A stretch of DNA of 64,000 nt from Ottowia testudinis. GTDB lineage: Bacteria; Pseudomonadota; Gammaproteobacteria; Burkholderiales; Burkholderiaceae_C. This document shows positions 11,745 through 53,742 of this stretch, piece by piece. The notes beneath the pieces are model-generated. The model was not told where the DNA came from. It saw nothing but the letters and a program-made list of their open reading frames with translations, and made no database searches. Location: the NCBI RefSeq assembly GCF_017498525.1, contig NZ_CP071796.1, forward strand, positions 4,224,041-4,288,040. Direction: 5' to 3'. How positions within the stretch are numbered: position 1 is the first letter of the stretch; each line of letters starts with the position of its first letter. A program made the position numbers and the translations under genes.

Positions 11745-12626
11745 CTAAGGCGCAACGCCCGTGCGCTCCAGCTCGATGGGGGGGAAGCGCTGCACCAGCC
11801 AGTCGCGCAGGGCCTCGAACACCGGCGCATTGTCGAGTTCGTTGAACAGTTCGTGGTAGTGCATGGGAAACGCCTGCACGGTCATCCATTCAGGCGGCGC
11901 GGCCGCCGCGAAGGCGTGGCTGCCGGCTGGGTTGACCAGCTTGTCCTGACCGGCGTAGAGCAGCAAGGTCGGCACCTTCCAGCGCGGCGCGCGCTTGAGC
12001 ACGGCCGCGCCCGCTTGATCCATGAAGCGCGCCAGCCGCGCGCTGATGCGGTCGTGCACCAGCGGATCGGCGCGGTAGGCGTCAACCACCGCCAGATCGT
12101 GCGACAGATAGCGCGCGTCAATCCCGCTGCCCACGCGCACGCACGGCGCGAGGCGGTGGAGCGTGTTCATCAACGCCCGCTGCAGCACGCTGAGTCCCAG
12201 GTTCAGCGCGGGCGACGACAGCACCAGCGCATCGACCCGGCGCAACTTGAGCGACACCAGCCGCGCCGCCACCAGGCCGCCCATCGAGTGGCCCAGCAGA
12301 ATCAGCGGCAGGCGGTCGTCCATGCGCGCGCGCGTGTCGTCGATGACGCTGGCCAGGTCGGCCAGCAGCCGGTCGTCGGCAGGCAACTCGCCGCGCAGGC
12401 CGGCCGTTTCGCCGTGGCCGTATTGGTCGTAGCCACGCACGGAAAAACCCCATTCATTGAGGCGATCCGCCACGTGCGCGTAGCGCCCGACGTGCTCGCC
12501 CAAGCCATGCACCAGCACCACCATGCCCCGCGTCGGCCAGCCGGCCGACAGCGGCCAGTCGTGCAGTGCCAGCGCGTCGCCCTGGGCGCCGCCAACGCTG
12601 AACAACTTGGGATCGCCCGCCATCAC
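11745..12626 (-). CDS. Alpha/beta hydrolase (monoacylglycerol lipase/lysophospholipase-like)
   Basis: A 293-residue serine hydrolase of the S33 or lysophospholipase type. It has an oxyanion region (VLVHGLGEHVGRY), nucleophile elbow GHSMGGL, an acid residue in YAGQDKLVNP and the catalytic His in FPMHYHELFNE. That combination is typical of monoacylglycerol lipase-like enzymes. It overlaps the upstream M20 peptidase gene by four bases (ATGA), so the two are translated together. I see no signal peptide; it is probably cytoplasmic. Confidence 0.87.
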   Translation of the reverse strand: MMAGDPKLFSVGGAQGDALALHDWPLSAGWPTRGMVVLVHGLGEHVGRYAHVADRLNEWGFSVRGYDQYGHGETAGLRGELPADDRLLADLASVIDDTRARMDDRLPLILLGHSMGGLVAARLVSLKLRRVDALVLSSPALNLGLSVLQRALMNTLHRLAPCVRVGSGIDARYLSHDLAVVDAYRADPLVHDRISARLARFMDQAGAAVLKRAPRWKVPTLLLYAGQDKLVNPAGSHAFAAAAPPEWMTVQAFPMHYHELFNELDNAPVFEALRDWLVQRFPPIELERTGVAP

Positions 12627-14098
12627 GGCATGCGGGCGATGACTTCGGCCACCGCCGCCGTCAGGCGCTTGGCGTAGGGCACATGCAGGAATTCGTTCGG
12701 CCCGTGCGCGTTGCTGCGCGGGCCCAGCACGCCGCAGACCATCATCTGCGACGTGGGAAAGCCCTCGCTCAGCTGGTTCATCAGCGGGATCGTGCCGCCC
12801 TGGCCGATGTAGCCGCAGGGCGCGCCGAAGTGCGCCTGCGACGCGGCGTTCAGCGCCTGCTCAAACCACGGCGCCGAGGCCGGCGCGTTCCAGCCGGTGG
12901 CGCCGCCTGAATGCTCGAACGTCACCTTCGCTTGATACGGCGCGTTGTCTTCCAGCAGGCGCTTCACGTCCTGCACGGCTTGCGCGGCATCGACCAGCGG
13001 GGGCAGGCGCAGACTCAGCTTGAAGGCGGTGCAGGGGCGCAGCACGTTGCCCGCATCTTGCGGCGCCGGGAAGCCCTCGGCCCCGGTGACGGAGAGCGTG
13101 GGCCGCCAGGTGCGCGCCAGCAGTGCATCGACCGGATCGCCCGTCATCGGCAGCACGCTGCGCGATTCGCCGCCGCAGTCGTAATGCACCCACGGGTAGC
13201 GCTTGAACAAATCGTCGCCCAGGATGGCCGCCGTGGCCTTGGCCTGCGCGATGCGCTCGGGCGGAATCTCGCAATGGAACTGCGCCGGCAGCAGGCGGCC
13301 GGTGGCGGAATCTTCCAGCCGGTCCAGCACATGCCGCAGCACGCGGAAGCTGCTGGGCACAAGCCCCGAGGCATCGCCCGAATGCACGCCCTCGGTCAGC
13401 ACCTCGACCTTGAGCGTGCCGGCCGCCATGCCGCGCAGACTGGTGGTGAGCCACAGCTGGTCGTAGTTGCCGGCGCCCGAATCCAGGCACACTACCAGGC
13501 CGACGCTTCCTAAGCGCGGGCGCAGCGCGTCGATGTAGTGCAGCAAATCGGGCGAGCCGCTTTCCTCGCTGGTCTCGATCAGGCCGACGATGCGCGGGTG
13601 CGGCACGTTCTGCGCTTTCAAGGCCTGCACGGCGGCAATGGCGGCATACACCGCGTAGCCGTCGTCGGCGCCACCGCGGCCGTAGAGCTTGCCGTCTTCG
13701 TACTTGGGCGTCCACGGACCCAGGTCCGAGCGCCAGCCGGTGAATTCGGGCTGCTTGTCGAGGTGGCCGTACATCAAGACCGTCTGGGCGGCGCCGGCTT
13801 TCGTGCCCTCGATCTCGAAAAAGATCACCGGCGTGCGCGCGCCGATGCGCACCACCTCCAGCTTCAGGCCCGGCACCTTTTGCGCCAGCACCCAATCGGC
13901 GGCATCGCGCACCACGCGGTCGATGAAGCCGTGCGCCGCCCAGTCGGGGTCAAAGGCCAGCGACTTGGCGGGTATGGCGATGTAGTCGGCGAGGCGCCGC
14001 ACGATGTCGCCGTCCCACTGGCGCGTGATTTGGTTGAGAGCGGCGGCGGCGTCCCAAGCGGGCGCGCGGGCCATTTCGCGGTGCAGCGGGGCGTTCAT
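12623..14098 (-). CDS. M20 family metallopeptidase (dipeptidase-like)
   Basis: A 491-residue protein from the ATG at 14098. M20 di-zinc motifs are visible: VLMYGHLDKQPEF (metal His and Asp), GRGGADDGYAVYAA (metal Asp), then the catalytic Glu and metal Glu in ETSEESGSPDL, and a dimerisation domain with HSG. The closest group is the carnosinase-like or dapE-like M20 dipeptidases. The frame stays open 23 codons upstream of the chosen start, but that extension (MRWCRTPRC...) does not look like protein. It is translationally coupled to the downstream hydrolase. Confidence 0.87.
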   Translation of the reverse strand: MNAPLHREMARAPAWDAAAALNQITRQWDGDIVRRLADYIAIPAKSLAFDPDWAAHGFIDRVVRDAADWVLAQKVPGLKLEVVRIGARTPVIFFEIEGTKAGAAQTVLMYGHLDKQPEFTGWRSDLGPWTPKYEDGKLYGRGGADDGYAVYAAIAAVQALKAQNVPHPRIVGLIETSEESGSPDLLHYIDALRPRLGSVGLVVCLDSGAGNYDQLWLTTSLRGMAAGTLKVEVLTEGVHSGDASGLVPSSFRVLRHVLDRLEDSATGRLLPAQFHCEIPPERIAQAKATAAILGDDLFKRYPWVHYDCGGESRSVLPMTGDPVDALLARTWRPTLSVTGAEGFPAPQDAGNVLRPCTAFKLSLRLPPLVDAAQAVQDVKRLLEDNAPYQAKVTFEHSGGATGWNAPASAPWFEQALNAASQAHFGAPCGYIGQGGTIPLMNQLSEGFPTSQMMVCGVLGPRSNAHGPNEFLHVPYAKRLTAAVAEVIARMP

Positions 14099-14273
14099 GG
14101 CGGCGATCCTTGACAGAGAGCAAAAAACGAAACGACGTGCGCAACGGGGCGTTCGGCACCACCGCATGCCGCTCGCGCACGTCCGGTGGAAACGTCACTG
14201 TACGTCGTCACGCACGACCGCACTGTCACCACGGTCATCGCGGCGACAACGGCCGGCGCGTATATTGGGTTGC

Positions 14274-14975
14274 ATGAATACCCTCGAAAACTTTCCCATC
14301 ACGCGCAAGTGGCCGGCGCGCCACCCCGACCGCTTGCAACTCTATTCGCTGGCCACGCCCAACGGCGTGAAGGTGTCGATCATGCTGGAGGAAACCGGCC
14401 TGCCCTACGAGGCGCACCGCGTGGACTTTGTGACAAACGACCAGACCTCGCCCGAGTTTTTGTCGCTCAACCCGAACAACAAGATCCCCGCCATCATCGA
14501 CCCCGACGGCCCGGGCGGCCAGCCGCTGGCGCTGTTCGAGTCGGGCGCCATCCTGATCTACCTGGCCGAAAAGACCGGCCAGCTGCTGCCCAAGTACCCG
14601 GCCGCGCGCTACCACGCGCTGCAATGGCTGATGTTCCAGATGGGCGGTGTCGGGCCGATGTTCGGCCAGCTCGGCTTCTTCCACAAATTCGCCGGCAAGG
14701 ACTTTGAGGACAAGCGCCCGCGCGATCGCTACGTGCATGAGAGCGCGCGCCTGCTCGGCGTGCTGAACAGCCACCTGAAGGGCCGCGCCTGGATGCTGGG
14801 CGACGGCTACAGCATCGCCGACATCGCCATCTTTCCGTGGGTGCGCAACCTGGTGGGTTTTTACGAGGCGGGCGATCTGGTGCAGTTCGACCGTTTCGCT
14901 GAAGTGCAGCGCGTGCTCGATGCCTTCGTCGCGCGCCCTGCCGTGCAGCGCGGGCTGCAGGTGCCGGTGGCGTGA
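14274..14975 (+). CDS. Glutathione S-transferase (YghU/nu-class-like)
   Basis: A 233-residue glutathione transferase. The N-terminal thioredoxin-like half has LQLYSLATPNGVKVSIMLEE, SLNPNNKIPAIIDPDG and LFESGAILIYLAEKTG, which includes the glutathione-binding Glu-Ser pair. The TPNG motif in place of a catalytic Ser/Tyr/Cys is typical of YghU/YfcG nu-class enzymes, which bind two glutathiones and reduce disulfides or peroxides. The ATG at 14274 begins MNTLENFPITRKWPA; the longer upstream frame is not conserved-looking. It is divergent from the M20 peptidase gene. Confidence 0.9.
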   Translation: MNTLENFPITRKWPARHPDRLQLYSLATPNGVKVSIMLEETGLPYEAHRVDFVTNDQTSPEFLSLNPNNKIPAIIDPDGPGGQPLALFESGAILIYLAEKTGQLLPKYPAARYHALQWLMFQMGGVGPMFGQLGFFHKFAGKDFEDKRPRDRYVHESARLLGVLNSHLKGRAWMLGDGYSIADIAIFPWVRNLVGFYEAGDLVQFDRFAEVQRVLDAFVARPAVQRGLQVPVA

Positions 14976-15524: not shown

Positions 15525-15605
15525 GGCTTTCACCTACTTTCTTCGGAGTGCTCGACCAACGCCTATGATGCCCGTGCGCCGCTGAGGTCTTACCGAAGCG
15601 GTGCA

Positions 15606-15761
15606 GCGTTCTCAGGGCGGGGTGAAAGTCCCCACCGGCGGTATCTGCTCCAGCGATGGGGCAGCAGCCCGCGAGCGCTCCGGCCGCCGCGCGGTGGCCG
15701 GAGGTCAGCAGACCTGGTGCGATGCCAGGGCCGACGGTCACAGTCCGGATGAAAGAGAGCG
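15606..15761 (+). promoter_or_regulatory. FMN riboswitch (RFN element)
   Basis: It shows the conserved RFN blocks: CTCAGGGCGGGGTGAAAGTC, CCCACCGGCGGTA, then a variable stem, then AGCAGACCTGGTG ... GCCGACGGTCACAGTCCGGAT and GAAAGAGAGC. The closing stem pairs CGTTCTC with GAGAGCG through one G-T pair. It lies 120 bases before the lumazine synthase gene and would repress it when FMN is abundant. Confidence 0.95.
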
Positions 15762-15880
15762 TGCGAAGCCGCGTCGCGGCGTGCTGGCCGTGCCTGTGTC
15801 CGCGGGCGCGCCCGCGCATGCCCGCGCGCGGCCTCGTGTGCGCCCTGATTCCTGGTCCCTTCCCTTCAACGGAGTTTTCC

Positions 15881-44748: not shown

Positions 44749-45819
44749 TCAAACCCGACGCCGCACCAGCACCTCCGCCACCGCCCCGCCCTGCGCGATC
44801 GACCACGCCAGCGGCAGAAAGCGCGCGATCACCTCGGTGTTGGTGCGCAGGTGCTCGGTCACTTCACTGCACGTGAAGCGCGCCTGGCCACCGCGCTGCC
44901 ACACCGCCAGCGCCAGCAGCAGCGCCCACTGATCCGCCAGGTGCGGGCCCAGCGCGGCGCCGCCGCCGTCATCGCCCACGCTGCGCTGGTAATCGCGCAG
45001 CTGCGTGGTCAGCCGTGCAGCCACCTCCTCGGCGCTCACGCCGCGCGCGCCGTATTCGGTGAACACTTCCGTCACGTGTTCATGCGCCAGCGTGGCGATC
45101 AGCGCATTGCCCGGCCCTTCGTCCTGCCGCGCGCTGCCATAGCGCTGCTGCTCGGGCGCCCAGCCCATAGCCTGCGCCAGCGCTTGCAGCTCGCGCGTGG
45201 CCACGGTGCGCGGCAGGCCGGGGCTCAGCGCCTCGGCGTGGGCACTGCGCGGCGCGCCTCGCGCCATCAAGTCGAACGCTTGCAAAGGTTGCGCGGGCGG
45301 CGTGATGTGCACCTGCACCTGGCCGCCCCCGGCGGGGTAGAAACCGTGGCGCTTTAGCGTCAGGGCCAGCGGCGCCGGCTGCCCTGCCGCCAGGCGCGCC
45401 AGCAAGGGCGCGTAGGCGTCGCGCAAGAAATGAAAGCACGGCGCCATCGGGTTGTGCGTGCCGCCGGTCAGTGTGATGTCGCTCGGCGCATCGGCCAGCA
45501 ACAGCGGCGGCAACACCGTTTGCAGCACCAGCATGGCGCTGCCTGCGCTGGCGATGCTGAAGGTGTAGTCGCCCGCACGCACCGGCCCGGGCGCAAAGCG
45601 CAACTGTTGCGAGCCCAATTCGGCCCCTGTCACCTGCGCCCCGCTGATGGCTTGCGCCGCCTGCACGCACGCCAGGTGCTGGCGCATCAGGCCCGGCTTG
45701 GGGCGCTTGGCGCGGATGCGGTCAATGCCCATCGGCTGGCCCGTGACCACCGACAGCGCCAGCGCCGTGCGCAGAATTTGCCCGCCGCCCTCGCCCTGCG
45801 AGCCGTCGAGTTCGATCAT
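44749..45819 (-). CDS. rtcA: RNA 3'-terminal phosphate cyclase
   Basis: A 356-residue RtcA. It begins MIELDGSQGEGGGQILRTALALS, and has the RxKRPKPGLMRQHLACVQAA block, the GGGQVQ turn and the adenylation site EHVTEVFTEYGARGVSAEEV. In relatives the nucleophilic His of this region forms the AMP link; here EHVTEVF carries the expected His. It converts 3'-phosphate ends to 2',3'-cyclic phosphates. It overlaps rlaP by four bases and is the last gene of the RNA-repair operon. Confidence 0.95.
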   Translation of the reverse strand: MIELDGSQGEGGGQILRTALALSVVTGQPMGIDRIRAKRPKPGLMRQHLACVQAAQAISGAQVTGAELGSQQLRFAPGPVRAGDYTFSIASAGSAMLVLQTVLPPLLLADAPSDITLTGGTHNPMAPCFHFLRDAYAPLLARLAAGQPAPLALTLKRHGFYPAGGGQVQVHITPPAQPLQAFDLMARGAPRSAHAEALSPGLPRTVATRELQALAQAMGWAPEQQRYGSARQDEGPGNALIATLAHEHVTEVFTEYGARGVSAEEVAARLTTQLRDYQRSVGDDGGGAALGPHLADQWALLLALAVWQRGGQARFTCSEVTEHLRTNTEVIARFLPLAWSIAQGGAVAEVLVRRRV

Positions 45820-46637
45820 GCGCGCTCCTGGTTGAAGCGCTGCACCGTGTCCAGCAAATACGCATCCAGCTCTCGCACGTCGGCGCGCGGCGCGGGCGCT
45901 TGCAGCGGGTGGTCGGCGTGGTGCGCCAGCTCGCGCGTGATGAACTCGTGCAGGCCCGTCCAGCGCGCGCTGGTGGCGGCTTCGCCGGCGCGCATCTTCA
46001 CTTCAAGCAAGCGGTTGATCTCGTCAATCAAGGCGGCGTCACGCCCAGCATCCAGCACCTGCTCGGCCAGTTCGGCAAAGCGCATCGGCGGCGCGCCCGC
46101 ATCATGAGCCGCGATCCAGCGCGCGGCCAGCAGCGGGCGCAGCACGTACAGGTATTTCTTGTAGCGCACAGCGTCGCCTTGCAGGTACTCGCGAAAGTTC
46201 TTTTTCGCCATGGCCGCGTAGTGGTGCCATGCGCGCACGCGCGAGAAATGCGCCTGCGCCAGCGTGGCGAAAGTGCCCATCGCCGCGTCATCCTGCCGGT
46301 ACACGATGGGCGAGCGCAGCCATTCCAGCAGCGTCGGGTTGGATTCGCGCAGCAGCCCCAGCGCCTTGCGCAAGTCCCAGCCGTTGATGTCCAGCACGTC
46401 GCTGATCGGCAGCTCTATCACGTCGCGCTGCGGCAGCGCCGTGAGGTACCACGGCAGGCGATTGACGTAGATGAAGCGCACGTCGTAGTCGCTGTCGGGC
46501 GAAGCGAAGCCCCAGCCCCGGCTGCCGGATTCGCAGGCAAACAGTACGGTGACATGGTGCTGGTGCTCAATGTCGGTCAGCGCAGCCAGGATGCGCTGGC
46601 GCACGTGCGGCTCGACAGGGTGGGAACTGTAGATCAT
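45816..46637 (-). CDS. RlaP-like nucleotidyltransferase of RNA-repair operon
   Basis: About 273 residues. The N-terminal nucleotidyltransferase fold has FACESGSRGWGFASPDSDYDVRFIYV (the GSRGWG and DSDYDVRF parts are the active site, with two Asp). The rest is helical. This matches the PF10127 RNA ligase-adjacent protein (RlaP) family, which is linked to RtcB or RNA ligases by gene neighbourhood; its reaction has not been settled. The ATG at 46637 gives a 4-base gap from the upstream gene; the frame is open 20 codons further, into that gene. Confidence 0.88.
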   Translation of the reverse strand: MIYSSHPVEPHVRQRILAALTDIEHQHHVTVLFACESGSRGWGFASPDSDYDVRFIYVNRLPWYLTALPQRDVIELPISDVLDINGWDLRKALGLLRESNPTLLEWLRSPIVYRQDDAAMGTFATLAQAHFSRVRAWHHYAAMAKKNFREYLQGDAVRYKKYLYVLRPLLAARWIAAHDAGAPPMRFAELAEQVLDAGRDAALIDEINRLLEVKMRAGEAATSARWTGLHEFITRELAHHADHPLQAPAPRADVRELDAYLLDTVQRFNQERA

Positions 46638-46641
46638 GACT

Positions 46642-47580
46642 TCATAGCTCAATAGAAGCGTCTTTTCTGGGGCCAACGACTTGGCATATTTCATCAATCA
46701 ACGCGTCGCAAGCGTGCATAACGTCGCGAGCGACCCGCAACTGATGCAAGTTCAAGTCAGAAGCGGTGGCGTAAGGAATCGCGTCTCGACCACCATAGTC
46801 ATAGGCAACAGAAAATTTGTCTTTATGTGTTTCGAAACGAGCCCTTCCATCGGGCTGGTCAACAAGCTCCTGTCGAAAACAAATACTTCTTCGCCACAAG
46901 TGCGTCATTCCGACATTGATATGCGAAGGAATGGAGTGGGCCGATTCGTTGCGCCAATCGCGGCTCGCAATCCTGTGGTTTTCGTCGTCAAGCTGTTCTA
47001 GACGGTGAATGAGATGCAAGGCCTTTGACCATGCAGCGGAAATATTTTTCAGCTGCCTCTCCTTTTCTTGCCTAGACCAAGAGACTTTGTTTGGATTTGA
47101 AGCGCCTCTCAAGAGCCGTCTCTTCTTTTTGTCATCCTCGGGCAGCCAGTCTGCGGTATAGCCCGAAGCTACGTTTGCGGCATGGACCACATGTGTGGCA
47201 TACCGCACCATTGCGTCCCTAAAACTCGTGGGCTGATGGAAGCAGAAGAACACCACGGGCTCGACGAACTCCAAATAGACGGACCAACCATCCTCCTCAC
47301 CCACCGATGCCAGCACGTTATTCCATGCCAGCAACGACGCTGTGTGCCTGACCCAAGCGTTGAATCGGTTGACAACCTCTCCATAGTCGGAGCGCGCGAT
47401 TTCGCCACTCAGTCCGAGGTGTGCTTGGCTGAGCAGGTCGCGCTTTTCGTACGGGTGATACGACACAAACTCTGGCGCCAACCAGTCCATGCTGTAGAGC
47501 ACATCCAGCATCGCCTTGTTCGCATCGACCAGGATGGTGCGGTGTCGCAAGACCTCCTGTTCACGTTCTGCCGCGTTCAT
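46642..47580 (-). CDS. Unknown protein in rtc operon with HEPN-like RNESAH motif
   Basis: A 312-residue protein that I cannot assign to a named family. It is predicted to be mostly helical, without signal peptide or membrane segments. Residues 210-215 read RNESAH, the RX4H pattern of HEPN ribonucleases, in a helical context (ENHRIASRDWRNESAHSIPS). The gene is visibly more AT-rich than rtcB and rtcA yet is tightly packed between them: 4 bases from the rtcB stop and 4 bases before rlaP. Its ribosome site AGGGGTGAAGGA overlaps the end of rtcB. A role in cutting or binding damaged RNA is my inference. Confidence 0.75.
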   Translation of the reverse strand: MNAAEREQEVLRHRTILVDANKAMLDVLYSMDWLAPEFVSYHPYEKRDLLSQAHLGLSGEIARSDYGEVVNRFNAWVRHTASLLAWNNVLASVGEEDGWSVYLEFVEPVVFFCFHQPTSFRDAMVRYATHVVHAANVASGYTADWLPEDDKKKRRLLRGASNPNKVSWSRQEKERQLKNISAAWSKALHLIHRLEQLDDENHRIASRDWRNESAHSIPSHINVGMTHLWRRSICFRQELVDQPDGRARFETHKDKFSVAYDYGGRDAIPYATASDLNLHQLRVARDVMHACDALIDEICQVVGPRKDASIEL

Positions 47581-47584
47581 TCCT

Positions 47585-48802
47585 TCACCCCTTCACACAC
47601 ACCACCTGCTTCAGCGTATACACCACCTCCACCAGATCTTTTTGCGCTTCCATCACGGCGTCGATGTCCTTGTAAGCCATCGGGATTTCGTCGATCACGT
47701 CGGCGTCTTTTCGGCATTCCACGCCTTCGGTGGCCTTGATCTGATCTTGGATGCTGAACAGCTTCTTGGCCTTGGTGCGGCTCATTTTTCGGCCAGCGCC
47801 GTGGCTGCAACTCATGAAGCTGTCGGGGTTGCCTTTCCCGCGCACGATGTAGCTCTTGGCGCCCATGCTGCCGGGGATGATGCCCAGCTCGCCCGCCTTG
47901 GCGCTCACCGCGCCCTTGCGCGTGACGAACACGTCGTGCCCGAAATGCGTTTCGCGCTGCACGTAGTTGTGGTGGCAATTCACGGCTTCCAGGTGCGTGC
48001 TGAACGGCTTGGTGATCACCTGGCGCATGGCCTCGATCACGCGCAGCATCATCACCTCGCGGTTGGCGCGGGCAAACTTTTGCGCCCAGCCCACGCCCTG
48101 CACGTAGTCGCCGAAATATTGGCTGCCTTCTTCGAAATAAGCCAAATCTTTATCGGGCAACTGCACGTTGTTGCGTTCGGCGTCTTTCTTCGCCAATTCA
48201 ATGAAATGCGTGCCCATGGCGTTACCCACGCCGCGTGAGCCGGAGTGCAGCATCACCCACACCGCCTGCGCCTCGTCCAGGCAGATTTCGATGAAGTGGT
48301 TGCCCGTCCCCAGCGTTCCCAGTTGCTTGTAGTTGTTGGTGTTTTTCAGGCGCGGGTATTTCTCGCAAATCTGCTCGAATTCATCCACCAGTTGCGTCCA
48401 CGCGGCATCGGTTTCAGGCGGCGGTGTGTCCCACGAACCCTTGTCGCGCCCATAACGGCGCGGCGACATGCCGTGCGGCACGGCTTTTTCAATCGCCGCG
48501 CGCAGCGGGCCGAGTGAATCGGGCAAATCGCTCGCCATCAGCGTGGTTTTGCACGCCATCATTCCGCAGCCAATATCCACGCCCACGGCCGCCGGAATGA
48601 TGGCCTTGAAGGTGGGAATAACCGAGCCCACGGTGGCGCCAATGCCGTAATGCACATCGGGCATGGCGGCCACGTGCTTGAACACGATGGGCAGGCGCGA
48701 GACGTTCTGCAATTGCTGCATGGCTTCGTCTTCGACCGGCACGCCTTTCGTCCACATCTTGATGGGCAGGGCGTTGTCGTTTTGGATTTCGTTGTAGTTC
48801 AT
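47585..48802 (-). CDS. rtcB: RNA-splicing ligase
   Basis: A 405-residue RtcB, which joins RNA 2',3'-cyclic phosphate or 3'-phosphate ends to 5'-OH ends using GTP and Mn. Metal and active-site motifs are present: PDVHYGIGATVGSV, VGVDIGCGMMACKT, GTGNHFIEI, HSGSRGVG and the guanylated His in MSCSHGAGRKMSRTKA. It starts at 48802 (MNYNEIQNDNALPIKMW), overlapping the preceding gene by four bases. Homologues of this type sit in sigma-54/RtcR-controlled operons. Confidence 0.96.
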   Translation of the reverse strand: MNYNEIQNDNALPIKMWTKGVPVEDEAMQQLQNVSRLPIVFKHVAAMPDVHYGIGATVGSVIPTFKAIIPAAVGVDIGCGMMACKTTLMASDLPDSLGPLRAAIEKAVPHGMSPRRYGRDKGSWDTPPPETDAAWTQLVDEFEQICEKYPRLKNTNNYKQLGTLGTGNHFIEICLDEAQAVWVMLHSGSRGVGNAMGTHFIELAKKDAERNNVQLPDKDLAYFEEGSQYFGDYVQGVGWAQKFARANREVMMLRVIEAMRQVITKPFSTHLEAVNCHHNYVQRETHFGHDVFVTRKGAVSAKAGELGIIPGSMGAKSYIVRGKGNPDSFMSCSHGAGRKMSRTKAKKLFSIQDQIKATEGVECRKDADVIDEIPMAYKDIDAVMEAQKDLVEVVYTLKQVVCVKG

Positions 48803-49398
48803 AGTGGATTGAGGAAAAGTATCTTTCTGTTTTTTATGAATTCGCTCATGGTCGCTTGGCATTCATCGAATCTTGTCTGCCATTCTGCTTGCTGCATTAA
48901 TAGACCGCGATCGCCTACGATAGTGCTGAATAATATTTTTCTACCATTTAATTCAACTGACACCGGAGATTTTATATTAATTCCTTTAAACTCCTGCGTC
49001 GTTAGTATGCCTGCATACATTGCGGGAAGTAGATTTTCGGTGATTGCGGGTATGTCTTGATGGTCACGAGAGCGAAAATCAATAGGAAAATAACCCTCGT
49101 GCAGTCCGTTGCATCTGAATAGCTCATAGAATGCTGTCGACAATTTAGTGCTTTTGCTGTCATAAGTGACATAAATGTCATCGTGTGGCACGAAATTTCC
49201 CTCTGTCGCCATAAACCAAATTGTTGACATCTCATCATTTAAAAATTTGGTGTAACGAGCTTTGTTGCTTTCCTCCGCAGGGTATCTCCTTTTTGCTGCC
49301 GCGTCTATTAATATGCAGAGATTGATGCAGGCAAGTTCCGACTCATTTTGCGACAGCTTCCATAACGCATCCTCGATGAGCTTGGAAATAATATTCAT
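48799..49398 (-). CDS. Hypothetical protein in rtc operon
   Basis: A 199-residue protein, AT-rich and unlike its neighbours in codon use. It begins MNIISKLIEDALWKLSQNES and includes LACINLCILIDAAAKRRYP, an amphipathic helical pair of the sort seen in small HEPN-like or unknown helical families, but no catalytic motif is clear. The C-terminal half looks mixed alpha/beta. It is the first protein gene after the structured-RNA array (start 9 bases past the CCA of the tRNA-like 3' end) and overlaps rtcB by four bases. Function unknown. Confidence 0.75.
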   Translation of the reverse strand: MNIISKLIEDALWKLSQNESELACINLCILIDAAAKRRYPAEESNKARYTKFLNDEMSTIWFMATEGNFVPHDDIYVTYDSKSTKLSTAFYELFRCNGLHEGYFPIDFRSRDHQDIPAITENLLPAMYAGILTTQEFKGINIKSPVSVELNGRKILFSTIVGDRGLLMQQAEWQTRFDECQATMSEFIKNRKILFLNPL

Positions 49399-49407
49399 AA
49401 TATTCTC

Positions 49408-49440
49408 ATAGTGGTGGACACGACGGGATTCGAACCCGCA
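49408..49440 (-). other. tRNA-like 3' end (T-arm plus CCA)
   Basis: On the minus strand TGCGGGTTCGAATCCCGT is followed by CGTGTCCACCA. It has a full T-arm and an encoded CCA, but I find no matching D-arm or 5' acceptor strand in the 240 bases before it. Either a tRNA-gene remnant or the end of a further unusual RNA. Confidence 0.6.
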
Positions 49441-49655
49441 TCAATGCAGCAACCGGGGTGTTTGAATCCGCCGGCCCCGTCGATGGTTGGAAACGCGCGC
49501 CAGTGACAGACCCGTCATCGGAGCCAGCACCTGCATCCTCAACCGCACCCATCGACCGACTTGCCTGCTGCACCTGGTATTACCCAGACTGCCGGCAATT
49601 TCAACATTTATGGCAGTGGCGCTCCCTTCTGTGCCTGCGTGCCCGTAAAAAGAGA
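49441..49655 (-). other. Unassigned structured region of the rtc RNA array
   Basis: About 215 bases with no gene between the third Y-like RNA and the CCA-bearing end. GTCGATGG and CCATCGAC (plus-strand 49489-49496 and 49549-49556) form an 8-bp stem, with a smaller TGACAG...GTCA hairpin inside. A T5 tract at 49647-49651 follows the preceding RNA. Confidence 0.5.
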
Positions 49656-49782
49656 GATGATTAAATCGGCAGGTTGTTTTTCCTGAGCTATCGGCATGAA
49701 GCCGACCGGGGATTGAACCCGGGACCTCCGCAGCCATTCAAGGCATGCGGCACTCTGACCTGTAAACCTACCAGCATTCATC
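49656..49782 (-). ncRNA. YrlA-like Y RNA, unit 3 (degenerate D-arm)
   Basis: The outer stem pairs GATGA with TCATC and GGTAGGTT with AACCTGCC (one G-T pair). Inside, a T-arm (CCCGGGTTCAATCCCCGG) is followed by a short acceptor hairpin TCGGC, TTCAT, GCCGA and a D-arm start TAGCTCAGGA, which then lacks a clear D-stem partner. A T5 tract follows within a few bases. It has the same order of parts as units 1 and 2. Confidence 0.7.
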
Positions 49783-49796
49783 TCGCAACTGAAGAT

Positions 49797-49944
49797 GAAG
49801 CGTGATCGCAACCAGGTTTTGGTGAAACATTTCCATCGCTCTATCCTGACTGAGCTACACGCACTGCACCTGGCAGGCGTGGCGGGATTCGAACCCGCGA
49901 CCCATGGATTACTGTAGTTCCACCGGCATTTGCGATCGCGCTTC
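49797..49944 (-). ncRNA. YrlA-like Y RNA, unit 2
   Basis: The outer stem pairs GAAGCG with CGCTTC, GATCGCAA with TTGCGATC, and GGTGGAAC with GTTTCACC. Between lie T-arm GCGGGTTCGAATCCCGC, acceptor strands ACGCCTGC and GCAGTGCGT (one bulge), and a D-arm GTAGCTCAGTCAGGATAGAGC. This is a circularly permuted tRNA with ends in a Y-RNA stem, as described for Salmonella YrlA. Confidence 0.82.
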
Positions 49945-49952
49945 AAAAAAAT

Positions 49953-50106
49953 GCAGCGACAAGGTTTGACGAAACGTTCGTGCTCTATCCCCTGAGCTAC
50001 GGTGCTGCGATGAACACGGGGCTGACCCATGCCCATCGCAGCACCGGCGGGACTCGAACCCGCGACCACGATCTGTGCAAGATGTAGTTTCGTCCGCATT
50101 CGCTGC
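49953..50106 (-). ncRNA. YrlA-like Y RNA, unit 1
   Basis: The outer stem pairs GCAGCGA with TCGCTGC, and GACGAAAC with GTTTCGTC. Inside lie T-arm GCGGGTTCGAGTCCCGC, a perfect 12-bp acceptor GGTGCTGCGATG/CATCGCAGCACC closed by a 21-base loop, and D-arm GTAGCTCAGGGGATAGAGCAC. GACGAA resembles the bacterial Ro-binding motif GNCGAAN(0-1)G. A T7 tract follows at 49945-49951. The best-formed unit of the array. Confidence 0.85.
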
Positions 50107-50121
50107 GCAATCATTGGCCCC

Positions 50122-50191
50122 CGCCGGGCGACAAACGTCAGGTGTGAGGGAGACATTTCACAGATGTACTCACACCGGCATTCGTCCGGCG
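50122..50191 (-). ncRNA. Short Y RNA-like stem (YrlB-like), unit 0
   Basis: A 70-base hairpin without a tRNA-like part. It pairs CGCCGG with CCGGCG and GGTGTGAG with CTCACACC, separated by an internal loop. Its 5' strand has GACGAATG (50179-50186), which fits GNCGAAN(0-1)G. It lies directly before unit 1. Confidence 0.7.
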
Positions 50192-50218
50192 ACGACGCAT
50201 TCATAACTCCTAAGCCTC

Positions 50219-50310
50219 GTAGGTTGAGGTAAGCGCAGCGCACCTCAACATGGGCGTCGCCATGCGATCCGGCGCTTCGTTGGGGTTCACTGCGTTCACC
50301 CCAACCTACC
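50219..50310. repeat. REP-like doublet of hairpins between rsr and the RNA array
   Basis: Two hairpins: GTTGAGGT/ACCTCAAC (50223-50249) and GTTGGGGT/ACCCCAAC (50279-50305), framed by GTAGGTTG and CAACCTAC. Their style is that of common intergenic repeats, so they may not be part of the RNA system. Confidence 0.75.
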
Positions 50311-50320
50311 CAACTCCCGT

Positions 50321-50366
50321 ATTGATAGCTGCCTGCGCTTGCCAGGCAAGCGCAAACTCCTGTTTT
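50321..50366 (+). repeat. Dispersed hairpin repeat, copy 17
   Basis: It reads TTGATAGCTGCCTGCGCTTG, CCAGG, CAAGCGC, then AAACTCCTGTTTTC. The hairpin is perfect. It lies 4 bases past the 3' end of rsr. Confidence 0.85.
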
Positions 50367-50369
50367 CGT

Positions 50370-51923
50370 TCATAAAACCTCCTGCTCGATCACGCCCACC
50401 CAGTGCCCGGCGCCCAGGACGTCGGCAGCAAACAGGGCCAGCAGCTTGAACACCTCATCACTGAAGCCACCGATGTTCAGCACATCGGTACGCTCCGCCG
50501 CAGGCGTGGTGGCATACGGCTGGATGTCCAGGCAAACCAGCTTGGCACGCGGGTTGCGCTGCTTGAACGCTTCCCAGGCCTGCATGGTCGCCGTGCCACG
50601 GCCGCGGGCGCGGTCAGCCCACGATTCGTTGTCGGACACCAGCAGCACCACGTCGGCCTGTGCCTTGCGGCGGTCCAGCCATTCCAGCGGCGCGCTGCAC
50701 GCCGTGCCACCGCCGCCCACGGCGGCCAGCTTGGCGGCGTTGGTCAGCACACTGTCGCGCGGGTTCAGTGCCACATCCACCACGCGCTGCTCAAACGGCA
50801 GCACGATGGCGTCGCGGCTCTTGCGCAGCACGGCGGCGGCCACCAGCGCGGCGACGTCGATGCAGCGCACGGCCGAGGTCGCGCCGGGGCGGTAACCCGT
50901 CACGGGCGAGCTCATCGAGCCCGACACGTCGGGGCACACCACCACGCGGCCTTCGATTTGCGGCACGTTGGCCAGCGCGTGCTCCATGGCGTCTTGCAGG
51001 GCCTCCTTCACCACATGCGGCACGTCGGCGCCGGTGGCGGTGTAGGCGGCCATCAACTGGTACGGCAGCACGCGCGCCTTGGCCACGGCTTTGGCATCGC
51101 GCAGCTTGGCGGCCACAGCTTGCGCCACACCCGGCAGCTTGAACACGCCGTGGCGCGCAAAGGTGTTCAGGTTCTGGCGCACCATCTGCCATGAGCCTTG
51201 GCGGGCAATCTGCGCCCAGTTGTTGGCCGTCAACTCCAGCGCGGTCAGCATCTGGAACGGCACGTCGGGTATATCCAACGTGCGATCAGATTTGTAGCGC
51301 TCAAACGCCTGCGTCAGCGGCGGCAGCTCTTCCAGCTTGAAAGGGCGGCCAATCAGCCATGCGAACCACGCGGCGCGCCAAGCCTCTTGCGGCTTGGGAT
51401 GCACCATCTTCACCACATCGGCCAGGGAGGGCGCGTTGCCCACGGCGGCGTGCAACAGTTGCGCCTCGGTCGCAGTGCACAGCCATTGCTGCACCAGCTT
51501 CTTGGGGCGCGTTCCCAGCGACTTGCGGCCCACGGCGCCGCTTCGCACGATTTGCACGAAGTTGCGCAGCATCTTGCCGTTGTCGACCACGCGCGGGAAC
51601 ACCTGCGCCAGCAGCGCCACATCGCGCACCGCCAGCGTGGCGGCCAGCACGGCGGGCATGTCTTTCATATGGCCGCGTTGGCGGGCATACAAGGCAGTCT
51701 TGGCGACAAAGGCCGGCTCGACCTGCATGGCCAGCGCTTGCACCTGCGCCAACTGGTCTTGCGCGCTGGCGTAAAACGTCTGGTTCAGGCAGCCGGTGGC
51801 CGCCAGTTGCGCCAGCTGATGCTTTGGGCTCAGGCGATAGGCGGCGCCACCGGCTTCGTTGCGGGCGTTGGCGGCAGGCAGCAAGGCGCCCTTGGCGGTG
51901 TGGAACAGTTGGGTGTTGACCAT
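50370..51923 (-). CDS. rsr: Rsr, Ro60-like TROVE domain protein
   Basis: A 517-residue Ro60 orthologue. The N-terminal two thirds is the HEAT-repeat ring of the TROVE domain (LALYARQRGHMKDMPAVLAA, LRNFVQIVRSGAVGRKSLG); the C-terminal third is a von Willebrand A-like domain with MIDAS motif DVSGSMSS and later LLVSDNESW. Ro proteins bind Y RNAs and misfolded RNA and in bacteria work with PNPase. The ATG at 51923 (MVNTQLFHTAKGALL) follows AAGGAG. It is the first gene after the sigma-54 promoter and precedes the RNA array that probably encodes its partner RNAs. Confidence 0.94.
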   Translation of the reverse strand: MVNTQLFHTAKGALLPAANARNEAGGAAYRLSPKHQLAQLAATGCLNQTFYASAQDQLAQVQALAMQVEPAFVAKTALYARQRGHMKDMPAVLAATLAVRDVALLAQVFPRVVDNGKMLRNFVQIVRSGAVGRKSLGTRPKKLVQQWLCTATEAQLLHAAVGNAPSLADVVKMVHPKPQEAWRAAWFAWLIGRPFKLEELPPLTQAFERYKSDRTLDIPDVPFQMLTALELTANNWAQIARQGSWQMVRQNLNTFARHGVFKLPGVAQAVAAKLRDAKAVAKARVLPYQLMAAYTATGADVPHVVKEALQDAMEHALANVPQIEGRVVVCPDVSGSMSSPVTGYRPGATSAVRCIDVAALVAAAVLRKSRDAIVLPFEQRVVDVALNPRDSVLTNAAKLAAVGGGGTACSAPLEWLDRRKAQADVVLLVSDNESWADRARGRGTATMQAWEAFKQRNPRAKLVCLDIQPYATTPAAERTDVLNIGGFSDEVFKLLALFAADVLGAGHWVGVIEQEVL

Positions 51924-51969
51924 GATTTCAACTCCTTGTTTTGATTCGTGTGTTGAGTGCCTTATGTAT

Positions 51970-51985
51970 TGCAGGGGGCGTGCCA
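51970..51985 (-). promoter_or_regulatory. Sigma-54 promoter of the rsr-rtc operon
   Basis: On the minus strand TGGCACG, CCCC, CTGCA matches the -24/-12 consensus TGGCACGNNNNTTGCA with one mismatch. It would start transcription near 51958, about 35 bases before the rsr start codon. RtcR, encoded divergently, is a sigma-54 activator. Confidence 0.87.
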
Positions 51986-52122
51986 GGCCCTGGGTAAGCA
52001 CGGGCGAAATCTGTCTAAGCGATTGATTTATCAAGAGAAAAAACTTTTCCACGGGTTGGCGATGCGGTTGGCACGACGCATAGAATCGTGGCGTTCTTAT
52101 TTATTTATCTAATTTTTTATCC

Positions 52123-53742
52123 ATGGCCAAGCCCATCGTCGTCATCGGCTTTCTCGGCACGCAACTGGACGCCGGTCTGGGCACCGGCCGCTGGGAGAAG
52201 TGGCGCCCTACCGTGGCGCTGGGCCAGCACGACGACCGCGTGATCACGCGGTTGGAGCTGCTGGTCACGCCCCACCCCAAGCACGCCGCGCTGGCGCAGC
52301 GCGTGAAAGACGACCTGGCCACGGTGTCGCACGACACGCAGGTGAACCTGGTAGAGCTGCCCATTCACGACCCCTGGGACTTCGGCGAGGTCTACGGCGC
52401 GCTGTACGACTGGGCGCGCAGCTATGCTTTTGACACCGCGCGCGAGCAGTACTGGGCGCACATCACCACCGGCACGCACGTGGCGCAGATCTGCCTGTTT
52501 CTGCTGGCCGAGTCGCGCCACCTGCCGGGGGTGCTGGCGCAAACCTCTCCCCCTAAGCGCTGGGGCGCGGGCGATGCGGGGCAGATCACGCTGATCGACT
52601 TGGACTTGTCGCGTTACGACGCGATTGCGCAGCGTTTTTCAGCAGCGCAGCAAGACGCGGTGAGCTACCTGAAAAGCGGCATCGCCACCCGCAACGCGCG
52701 CTTCAACGCGCTGATTGACGAGATCGAGCGCGTGGCCGTGCACTCCACCGCGCCCATCCTGCTGGTGGGGCCCACGGGCGCGGGCAAGTCGTTTCTGGCG
52801 CGGCGCATGGTCGAGGTCAAGAAGGCGCGCAACCAGGTCAGCGGCCCCTTCGTCGAAGTGAACTGCGCCACGCTGCACGGCGACGGCGCCATGTCCACCT
52901 TGTTTGGCCATAAGAAGGGCGCTTTTACCGGCGCGGCGGCCGACCGCGCCGGTCTGCTGAAAAGTGCGCACGAGGGCGTGCTGTTTCTGGATGAAATCGG
53001 CGAGCTGGGCCTGGACGAGCAGGCCATGCTGCTCAAAGCCGTAGAAGAAAAGCGCTTTTACCCGCTGGGCAGCGACCGCGAGGTGGAAAGCAGCTTTCAG
53101 CTCATCGCCGGCACGCACCGCGACCTGCGGCGCGAGGTGGCGGCCGGGCGCTTTCGCGAAGACCTGTTCGCGCGCATCAACCTGTGGACGTATGACCTGC
53201 CGGGCCTGGCCGAGCGGCGCGAAGACATTGAGCCCAACATCGACCACCTGCTGGCGCTGCACGCGCGAGCGCACCGCGTGGTGCGCTTTCACCCCGAGGC
53301 GCGGCGCGACTATCTGCGCTTTGCGCAAAGCGACGCCGCGCCCTGGTGCGGCAACTTCCGCGACCTGTCAGCCAGCATCACGCGCCTGGCGACGCTGGCC
53401 GAAGGCGGGCGCATTTCGCAAGAGCTGGTGGCGGCTGAAGTCGCGCGCCTGCGCTGGCTGTGGCAGCGCGACACGCCAGCCGATGCGCCGCAGGCCGATG
53501 GGCTGGCGCTGGTCGAGCAACTGCTGGGCGCCGAGAAAAGCGCCGCGCTGGATTTGTTCGACCGCCTGCAACTGGCCGCCGTGCTGCCGGTGTGCGCGGC
53601 CAGCCGCACGCTGTCGGACGCCGGGCGCCAGCTGTTCGCCGCCTCGCGCGAGCAGCGCAAGGCCGTGAACGATGCGGATCGGCTGCGCAAGTATTTGATG
53701 AAGTTCGGGCTGGGCTGGGAGCAAATACGTCGCGCGCTGTAG
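52123..53742 (+). CDS. rtcR: RtcR, sigma-54-dependent transcriptional activator of RNA repair
   Basis: A 539-residue activator. Residues 1 to about 180 are the RtcR sensor domain (CARF-like; MAKPIVVIGFLGTQLDAG), which senses RNA ends. The AAA+ domain has Walker A GPTGAGKSF, the sigma-54-contacting GAFTGA loop and Walker B LFLDEIGELG. The C-terminus is helical with a recognition-helix-like end. In other bacteria RtcR responds to damaged tRNA fragments. It is divergent from rsr with about 200 bases between and would act on the sigma-54 promoter found there. Confidence 0.95.
   Translation: MAKPIVVIGFLGTQLDAGLGTGRWEKWRPTVALGQHDDRVITRLELLVTPHPKHAALAQRVKDDLATVSHDTQVNLVELPIHDPWDFGEVYGALYDWARSYAFDTAREQYWAHITTGTHVAQICLFLLAESRHLPGVLAQTSPPKRWGAGDAGQITLIDLDLSRYDAIAQRFSAAQQDAVSYLKSGIATRNARFNALIDEIERVAVHSTAPILLVGPTGAGKSFLARRMVEVKKARNQVSGPFVEVNCATLHGDGAMSTLFGHKKGAFTGAAADRAGLLKSAHEGVLFLDEIGELGLDEQAMLLKAVEEKRFYPLGSDREVESSFQLIAGTHRDLRREVAAGRFREDLFARINLWTYDLPGLAERREDIEPNIDHLLALHARAHRVVRFHPEARRDYLRFAQSDAAPWCGNFRDLSASITRLATLAEGGRISQELVAAEVARLRWLWQRDTPADAPQADGLALVEQLLGAEKSAALDLFDRLQLAAVLPVCAASRTLSDAGRQLFAASREQRKAVNDADRLRKYLMKFGLGWEQIRRAL

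Follow-up and report, generated by a model that had tools for sequence, protein, structure and literature searches.

A tRNA-like RNA in an RNA-repair operon

The RNA-repair operon of Ottowia testudinis carries a tRNA-like RNA of 233 nucleotides (nt) with an encoded CCA end, which we call EL and for which there is no Rfam family. It lies in a stretch of 64,000 nt (NCBI RefSeq assembly GCF_017498525.1, contig NZ_CP071796.1, positions 4,224,041 to 4,288,040 of the forward strand; hereafter the window, whose numbering is used throughout), at positions 49412..49644 of the minus strand. On that strand, from 51923 down to 44749, the order is rsr, an RNA-rich stretch that ends with EL, X1, rtcB, X2, rlaP and rtcA, with rtcR divergent; X1 and X2 encode proteins of no known family. 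The operon and its array of Y RNAs are of known kinds; EL is the new element, a well supported structured RNA that lies outside the Rfam families searched (Rfam 15) and is tied to RNA repair, and for its function we offer a hypothesis. As a defined RNA with tRNA ends that accompanies the ligase, whether Rsr and Y RNAs are present or not, EL gives a direct handle on the targets of bacterial RtcB and on the sensing of RNA breakage in cells. A structured RNA absent from Rfam 15 is thereby shown in some rtc operons, as is, ahead of rtcB, a cargo slot that collects unknown proteins.

EL forms the final 233 nt of the array and, on comparison of operons, showed high identity to three other rsr operons. 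The case for a structured RNA comes from an alignment of 31 EL sequences (A4), from the covariation within it, from 36 loci found with a sequence pattern (see below) and from a covariance model of EL (R2), which scores 276.7 bits at the window copy. RNAalifold predicted 67 pairs on A4, with 99.0% of the cells paired and double compensatory changes in 20 of the pairs. The cells with double changes numbered 131, against a mean of 35.7 for shuffled alignments (none of 500 as high) and 1-13 for controls in which the structure was slid along the alignment. An unconstrained fold of the window copy yielded the same cloverleaf as the A4 consensus. Left out of A4 were L097, which has a 22-nt insert; L074, L098 and L111, with copies of 301 nt; L114 and L119, whose copies are cut off by the edge of the locus stretch; L120, which is degenerate; and L109, discussed below. 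Some loci are apparently the same, with one genome per pair: L103 and L046, L105 and L052, L097 and L059, L111 and L074, L120 and L075, and L144 and L096. The 301-nt copies are from Acidovorax (L074:10070-10370, L111:1069-1369 and L098:3391-3691); in L074 the additional bases fall, by eye, within the T-loop.

The helices are, in order, an acceptor stem of 7 bp, a D-arm, a third arm (CUGCC/GGCAG) whose loop spans about 18 nt, a short hairpin and an 8-bp helix that closes a domain with a near-invariant core, after which come the T-arm, with UUCGAAU in its loop, and the ACCA end. The 5' strand of the acceptor stem, GGGCACG (49638..49644, minus strand, as for all parts of EL), pairs with CGTGTCC, and of the 31 aligned sequences 16 have A-U and 15 have G-C at pair 5:68. 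The 3' strand, in which U70 stands opposite G3, lies together with the ACCA end at 49412..49422; pair 3:70 is G-U in all 31 sequences and ACCA is present in 30. The T-arm (49423..49439), with the T-loop TTCGAAT, is found in 31/31. The D-arm (49618..49635), seen in the fold and with the D-loop AGAAGGGA, and the third arm are both invariant across the 31 sequences, the former partly by construction. In a diverged copy from a genome of another family (G282, locus L122), both arms are rebuilt with other letters, the D-arm as GCAT/ATGC with the loop AAACGGCA and the third arm as CACCG/CGGTG.

EL among known RNA classes

Searches with Rfam at gathering scores gave no match to EL in the window or at five other loci. 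ARAGORN called no tRNA in the window and called no EL a tRNA in the loci scanned; there is no Rfam tRNA match inside EL, and the loop of its third arm, at about 18 nt, is not a 7-nt anticodon loop. Nor is EL a Y RNA of the YrlA type: it has no enclosing stem of the Ro-binding type, there is no Rfam YrlA match inside it, and R1, a covariance model based on the two YrlA sequences of the window and 17 from relatives, gives no match there. Both YrlA (RF02553) and EL are tRNA mimics encoded between rsr and rtcB; YrlA, however, is permuted, with the T-arm before the D-arm, sits inside an enclosing stem and has no free CCA end, whereas EL follows the order of a tRNA, has a free CCA end and also occurs without rsr. 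An open reading frame (ORF) starting from an AUG in the third-arm loop was considered and set aside, as changes in loop length break the frame (judged by eye in a few sequences, with no count made).

The acceptor of EL is of the alanine type and is shared by the transfer-messenger RNA (tmRNA) of the same genome and by tRNA-Ala of two relatives. A count of G3-U70 over array tRNAs (1 of 74) was set aside as a control, since it had overlooked the tRNA-Ala genes of the array, and these do have the pair. The combination of G3-U70 with A73 we take to be alanine identity.

Distribution and gene context of EL

EL is linked to RNA-repair ligases, that is to rtcB and once to a T4-type ligase, whether rsr and Y RNAs are present or not. 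A scan blind to context, in which a 20-nt EL pattern was run over 84,980 species genomes, returned 36 loci, of which 34 have rtcB and/or rtcR within the 8-kb locus; judged by genus name, we take these 34 to be Burkholderiales. Among them rtcB is present in 27, rsr in 13 and, in the place of rsr, a Band_7 (SPFH) homologue in 21, with no locus having both rsr and Band_7 (the assignment is by homology to one Band_7 (SPFH) protein, with a Pfam search of one of them). In five of the seven EL loci without rtcB, EL lies at most 0.9 kb from the downstream end of the stretch. At the 35th locus, L085, from a metagenome-assembled genome of Conchiformibius, EL is followed by a protein of unknown function and then by a protein of 504 amino acids (aa) that contains an RNA ligase domain of the T4 type (PF09511; 36.0 bits against a cut-off of 28.3). 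Since EL precedes a T4-type RNA ligase there, its link may be to RNA repair generally. The 36th locus, L109, looks like a chance match to the pattern, with no T-arm, CCA end or rtc gene.

EL is present in few genomes. R2 confirmed EL in 4 of 23 intervals between rsr and rtcB (22 relatives and the window), and BLAST against 250 family genomes and PLSDB added copies in one further genome (G187) and on a plasmid of Eleftheria terrae, neither of which shows rsr in the stretch read; the plasmid copy lies 21 nt before rtcB. Over 299 family genomes R2 found EL at E <= 1e-8 in seven, all with an rsr or Band_7 gene and six with rtcB in the stretch read. In a search of 229 genomes R2 gave matches at E <= 0.001 in 120; among the matches listed, most span 70-95 nt, as a tRNA would, and some 110-230 nt. 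Outside its own genome the best score was that of the G282 copy (103.2 bits), where rtcB starts about 70 nt downstream, followed by G281 (38.5 bits), the rest scoring at most 32.8 bits among the matches listed. The G281 match (contig 186, 53-233; L123, L141) has a similar core and stands at the contig start next to genes that by eye resemble fabH and plsX; an RNA-repair gene was not found in the 9 kb read, and it is possibly a distant relative of EL away from rtcB. Two other matches are doubtful or false: one in G425 (27.6 bits) by eye resembles the end of an ordinary tmRNA, and a BLAST match in G135 is the end of a tRNA-Ser gene. EL was not found in phages, in E. coli or, as an exact pattern, in viral contigs, and no EL-like RNA near rtcB or slipin genes appeared among the titles listed by a literature search, with most subscription journals outside it.

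Where both could be measured, EL lies on the strand of rtcB in 29 of 29 pairs. The distance between them, taken to the start of the tblastn match, is 21-67 nt in 15 pairs and 274 nt in one; in the other 13, including the window, cargo ORFs intervene and the distance is 560-2666 nt.

Two features of the surroundings were recorded in passing. Proteins of about 260-280 aa, alike by eye, follow EL at L086:5600-6442, L106:389-1216 and L085:3423-4202, where they precede rtcB or the T4-type RNA ligase and may be a co-travelling partner. Ordinary tRNA gene arrays, of up to 23 genes, lie near the rsr/rtcB operons of relatives (L044:11374-13474, L060:12504-16397, L061:7785-9500 and L099:1005-4147), and also in L042, L057, L038 and L039; in several they are upstream of rsr, Band_7 or rtcB, and in some such loci no rtcR was seen.

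Possible functions of EL

EL carries an end like that of tRNA(Ala) or tmRNA, an anticodon-like arm that is closed and has an enlarged loop, a large folded insert and no conserved tag frame. With somewhat less than even confidence, and on the strength of sequence comparison, we favour the view that EL, encoded within an RtcR/sigma-54 RNA-repair operon of a known kind, is a noncoding mimic of tRNA(Ala) used in RNA repair as a decoy, a sentinel or a reporter substrate, X1 and X2 being exchangeable cargo. Such a role is suggested because EL combines an alanine-type acceptor and tRNA elbow loops with an open third-arm loop. EL would be excised from the operon transcript by tRNA-processing enzymes, might be alanylated, and would present itself to tRNA-cutting nucleases as a substrate that RtcB can reseal. 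Damage of the anticodon-nuclease type would leave 2',3'-cyclic-phosphate ends, resealable by RtcB and RtcA, and the 5' fragments of cut EL could feed RtcR, so that expression would track nuclease activity; X1 and X2, as exchangeable cargo encoded together with the repair enzymes, would probably be RNases of the HEPN type or accessories linked to defence. In E. coli the most frequent ligation target of RtcB was tmRNA (PMC9650030), and YrlA has been suggested to be a competitive inhibitor of the nuclease (PMC7790460). A further-reaching proposal, which we regard as rather unlikely, is that EL represents a new class of regulatory tRNA mimic, alanylatable, with a conserved sensor or effector insert and encoded with RtcB or T4-type ligases; nucleases would cut it as a sacrificial target, its state of cleavage would signal tRNA damage to the cell, and the ligase would reset it.

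Several observations weigh against the favoured view. EL is optional for RNA repair, given its presence in 7/299 family genomes and 4/23 rsr-rtcB intervals. Further pair types, one of five covariation measures, were not above shuffles (39 against 39.1), and the single-sequence fold of the window copy is no stabler than those of its shuffles (z -0.14; 85 of 200 fold as well). The seed pattern spans the D-arm, so that the invariance of this arm in the 31 sequences is in part built in; the counts lack independence, as 16 of the 36 loci are from Variovorax, and relatedness is not preserved in the shuffle control. In the model alignment of the G282 copy, non-standard pairs occur once in the acceptor and several times in the 8-bp helix. 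The HEPN reading of X1 and X2 is motif-based, and single-sequence AlphaFold models, with mean predicted local distance difference test scores of 42.4 and 37.1, gave no usable fold. Moreover, the position of EL 21-67 nt before rtcB in 15 of the 29 pairs would also fit a cis-acting leader.

The strongest rival is that EL is a cis-acting leader of rtcB, a tRNA-like fold in the mRNA that RtcB binds, or cuts and reseals, to tune expression of the ligase or, in a variant, that is bound by Rsr or a tRNA-binding protein. The constant strand, the short spacing in half of the pairs and the rtcB start some 70 nt behind the diverged G282 copy all suit it. A purely local leader is disfavoured, however, because in 13 pairs, including that of the window, EL is separated from rtcB by 560-2666 nt that contain cargo ORFs; in L085, EL precedes a different ligase, and the encoded ACCA (30/31) and the G3-U70 acceptor have been kept although a leader has no need of them. 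We consider this alternative unlikely, while ranking it above the two other readings of EL that follow.

EL could also be an unusual tmRNA that is alanylated, rescues ribosomes when RNA is damaged and may carry a short internal tag. It resembles tmRNA (RF00023) in its 7-bp acceptor with G3-U70, its A73-CCA end, its T-arm and the large insert between the 5' and 3' tRNA parts, ARAGORN calls tmRNA in two of about 36 distinct copies (L102, and L105, apparently the same copy as L052), and tmRNA is a main RtcB target in E. coli (PMC9650030). Unlike tmRNA, however, EL has a D-stem, a closed third arm and no conserved tag frame, and at 233 nt it is shorter than the tmRNA of its genome (376 nt). The GCA frame is without a stop in 18 of 31 sequences, and in L085 and L092 the core has lost 1 nt. 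The Rfam tmRNA model scores 20.3 bits at EL in the window and 22.8 bits in L144, against a cut-off of 47; elsewhere in the genome it gives 15.6-35.1 bits at other places, mostly tRNA-sized, and 197.5 bits at an ordinary tmRNA. A permuted tmRNA fares no better (21.1 bits, cut-off 47, over a stretch that reaches into X1). A tmRNA function for EL seems to us quite improbable. Least probable is a tRNA-like relic or attachment site, kept for DNA reasons and with cargo inserting behind it: the tRNA tail end with CCA, the various cargo genes after EL and the degenerate copy of L120/L075 (33.7 bits with R2) would suit it, but many helices, the insert included, show compensatory changes, 15 of the 29 pairs leave no room for cargo before rtcB, and no integrase was noticed beside EL, though no search aimed at integrases was made.

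The operon and its Y RNA array

The locus is a genuine RtcR/sigma-54 RNA-repair operon of a known kind, as a preliminary description of the sequence had proposed from the presence of RtcR, Rsr, RtcB, RlaP and RtcA, all now identified by matches to Pfam or, for RtcR, also to NCBIfam. rtcR (52123..53742, plus strand) encodes a sigma-54 activator with an RtcR-type N-terminal domain (Pfam RtcR, 254 bits, and Sigma54_activat; NCBIfam RNA_repair_RtcR, 793 bits). On the minus strand lie rsr, encoding a Ro60 homologue (50370..51923; Pfam vWA_Ro60, 65.5 bits, and TROVE, 33.7 bits), the RNA ligase gene rtcB (47585..48802; Pfam RtcB, 431.8 bits), rlaP, for a DNA polymerase beta-type nucleotidyltransferase of RNA repair (45816..46640; Pfam RlaP, 307.6 bits), and rtcA, for the RNA 3'-phosphate cyclase (44749..45819; Pfam RTC, 252 bits). 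A sigma-54 (-24/-12) promoter-like site, TGGCACGCCCCCTGCA, is found at 51970..51985 on the minus strand. It is the sole match in the window to TGGCACGN5TGCW, for which shuffling leads one to expect 0.22 matches, with at least one in 21 of 100 shuffles; what makes the promoter, also foreseen in the preliminary description, convincing is its position, 46 bases ahead of 51923, which is taken here as the start of rsr. The divergent rtcR, the sigma-54-type promoter and the co-directional rsr, Y RNA, rtcB and rtcA together make up an RtcR-controlled rsr-Y RNA-rtcBA operon. The tight packing described earlier is borne out by overlaps of 4 bases between X1 and rtcB and between rlaP and rtcA, and by a gap of 4 bases from rtcB to X2. 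So is the AT-richness of the first extra gene: GC content is 0.43 in the X1 region (48700-49299) against about 0.65 in rsr and rtcR.

The RNA-rich stretch had been taken for a single array of tRNA mimics of about 800 bases. Two YrlA RNAs, permuted tRNA mimics, do score above the Rfam cut-off of 69 for RF02553 (49950..50106, 75.0 bits, and 49802..49936, 72.8 bits, both minus strand), and a degenerate YrlA-like unit follows (49651..49784, minus strand; R1 21.7 bits, E 0.0014; partial Rfam match, 16.6 bits); the last third, however, is EL, a separate RNA. A weak candidate for a YrlB-like hairpin, a stem of the Ro-binding type without a tRNA-like domain, lies ahead of them (50122..50197, minus strand; minimum free energy stem; Rfam YrlB 20.3 bits over 50122-50191, E 0.43, cut-off 97). 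Between rsr and the first Y-like unit (50204-50330) are two imperfect palindromes, GTTGGGGTG..CCCCAAC and GTTGAGGTG..CCTCAAC, which by eye resemble repetitive extragenic palindromic sequences.

YrlA exceeds the Rfam cut-off in 15 of 250 family genomes. From the best YrlA matches we took 25 operon regions. The interval from rsr to rtcB is complete in 22, of which 20 also contain rtcA, and the order rsr, YrlA array, rtcB recurs among these relatives. Matches to R1 at E <= 0.001 between rsr and rtcB number one to five per operon, with a median of four (22 operons, counted by hand), and a multi-unit Y RNA array is usual in the family. Since the window has two such units and a third at E 0.0014, its array is of ordinary size, and the earlier suggestion that the size is new did not hold. 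The closest known system is rsr-yrlBA-rtcBA of Salmonella (Hughes et al., 2020; PMC7790460), which shares RtcR/sigma-54 control, Rsr, Y RNAs of the YrlA type, RtcB and RtcA, whereas the window operon has three to four Y-like units, RlaP, EL and two unassigned proteins.

X1, X2 and exchangeable cargo

X1 (199 aa; 48799..49398, minus strand) and X2 (312 aa; 46642..47580, minus strand) had been described as two extra proteins, one of them with a HEPN-like motif, acting in an expanded form of the system. The motif is present in X2 as RNESAH (RNxxxH), with R210, N211 and H215 invariant in four homologues, and a similar one, RCNGLH (RxxxxH), is found in X1, where it is kept in two distant homologues (R95/H100 in three sequences). 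RxxxxH we take to be the HEPN motif. An activity of X1 and X2 as HEPN-type RNases is plausible from these motifs. Neither protein has a significant match in Pfam (best E 0.036, below cut-off), NCBIfam or PADLOC, or among solved structures; phages gave no match and viral contigs no confirmed one. PHROGs returned E 0.031 for X1, E 0.021 for the X1 relative L062 and no match for X2, and plasmids a single weak match for X2 and none for X1.

The two proteins are variable cargo and not a conserved part of the operon. Relatives of X1 occur in none of 149 other family genomes and in 2 of 320 others of a class sample, those of X2 in 2 of the 149 and 1 of the 320, and none stands beside rtcB in the 2.7-8.8 kb read around them. 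The preliminary description had counted occurrence of the array and the extra genes without rtcB or rsr as evidence against itself; such occurrence was found for both protein families and not for the RNA. X1 and X2 may well be toxin or defence genes carried as passengers by a stress-induced operon, with no part in the action of the repair enzymes, a possibility that we place just short of even. The X2 relative L035 lies beside AbiEii (118.8 bits) and an AbiEi-like gene just under the cut-off, another (L036) is near a recombinase, and the X1 relative L062 follows a pair that by eye looks like RelE/XRE; these settings, and the lack of any relative beside rtcB in the stretch read, favour passengers. 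Against this, X1 overlaps rtcB by 4 bases and X2 starts 4 bases behind it, which points to translational coupling, and HEPN RNases leave ends that RtcB seals.

The slot between EL and rtcB holds various genes, X1 here and elsewhere those for proteins of 164-342 aa, and none of the seven scanned matches Pfam. HEPN RNases linked to RtcR-type regulators (CoCoNuTs; PMC11090510) share with the window a HEPN-like motif near an RtcR-regulated system and the idea of feedback through cyclic-phosphate fragments; X1 and X2 differ in being small proteins of a repair operon with no significant Pfam or PADLOC match. Feedback between HEPN RNases and RtcR-like regulators has been proposed in the same source, and a HEPN-domain prophage gene of Salmonella has been considered as a source of the RtcR signal (PMC9879122). 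X1 and X2 would fit such a HEPN-RtcR feedback loop. Exchangeable genes were also seen between rtcB and rtcA in L045, L046, L048 and L052, where they encode a metallo-beta-lactamase fold (tRNase Z-like, low score), HEAT-repeat proteins, DUF4275 and a treble-clef protein, and L056 has a second rlaP-rtcB-like pair (12004-14352; 45% and 31% identity) downstream of rtcR. Elsewhere in the window, Rfam places a flavin mononucleotide (FMN) riboswitch at 15604-15764 (98 bits).

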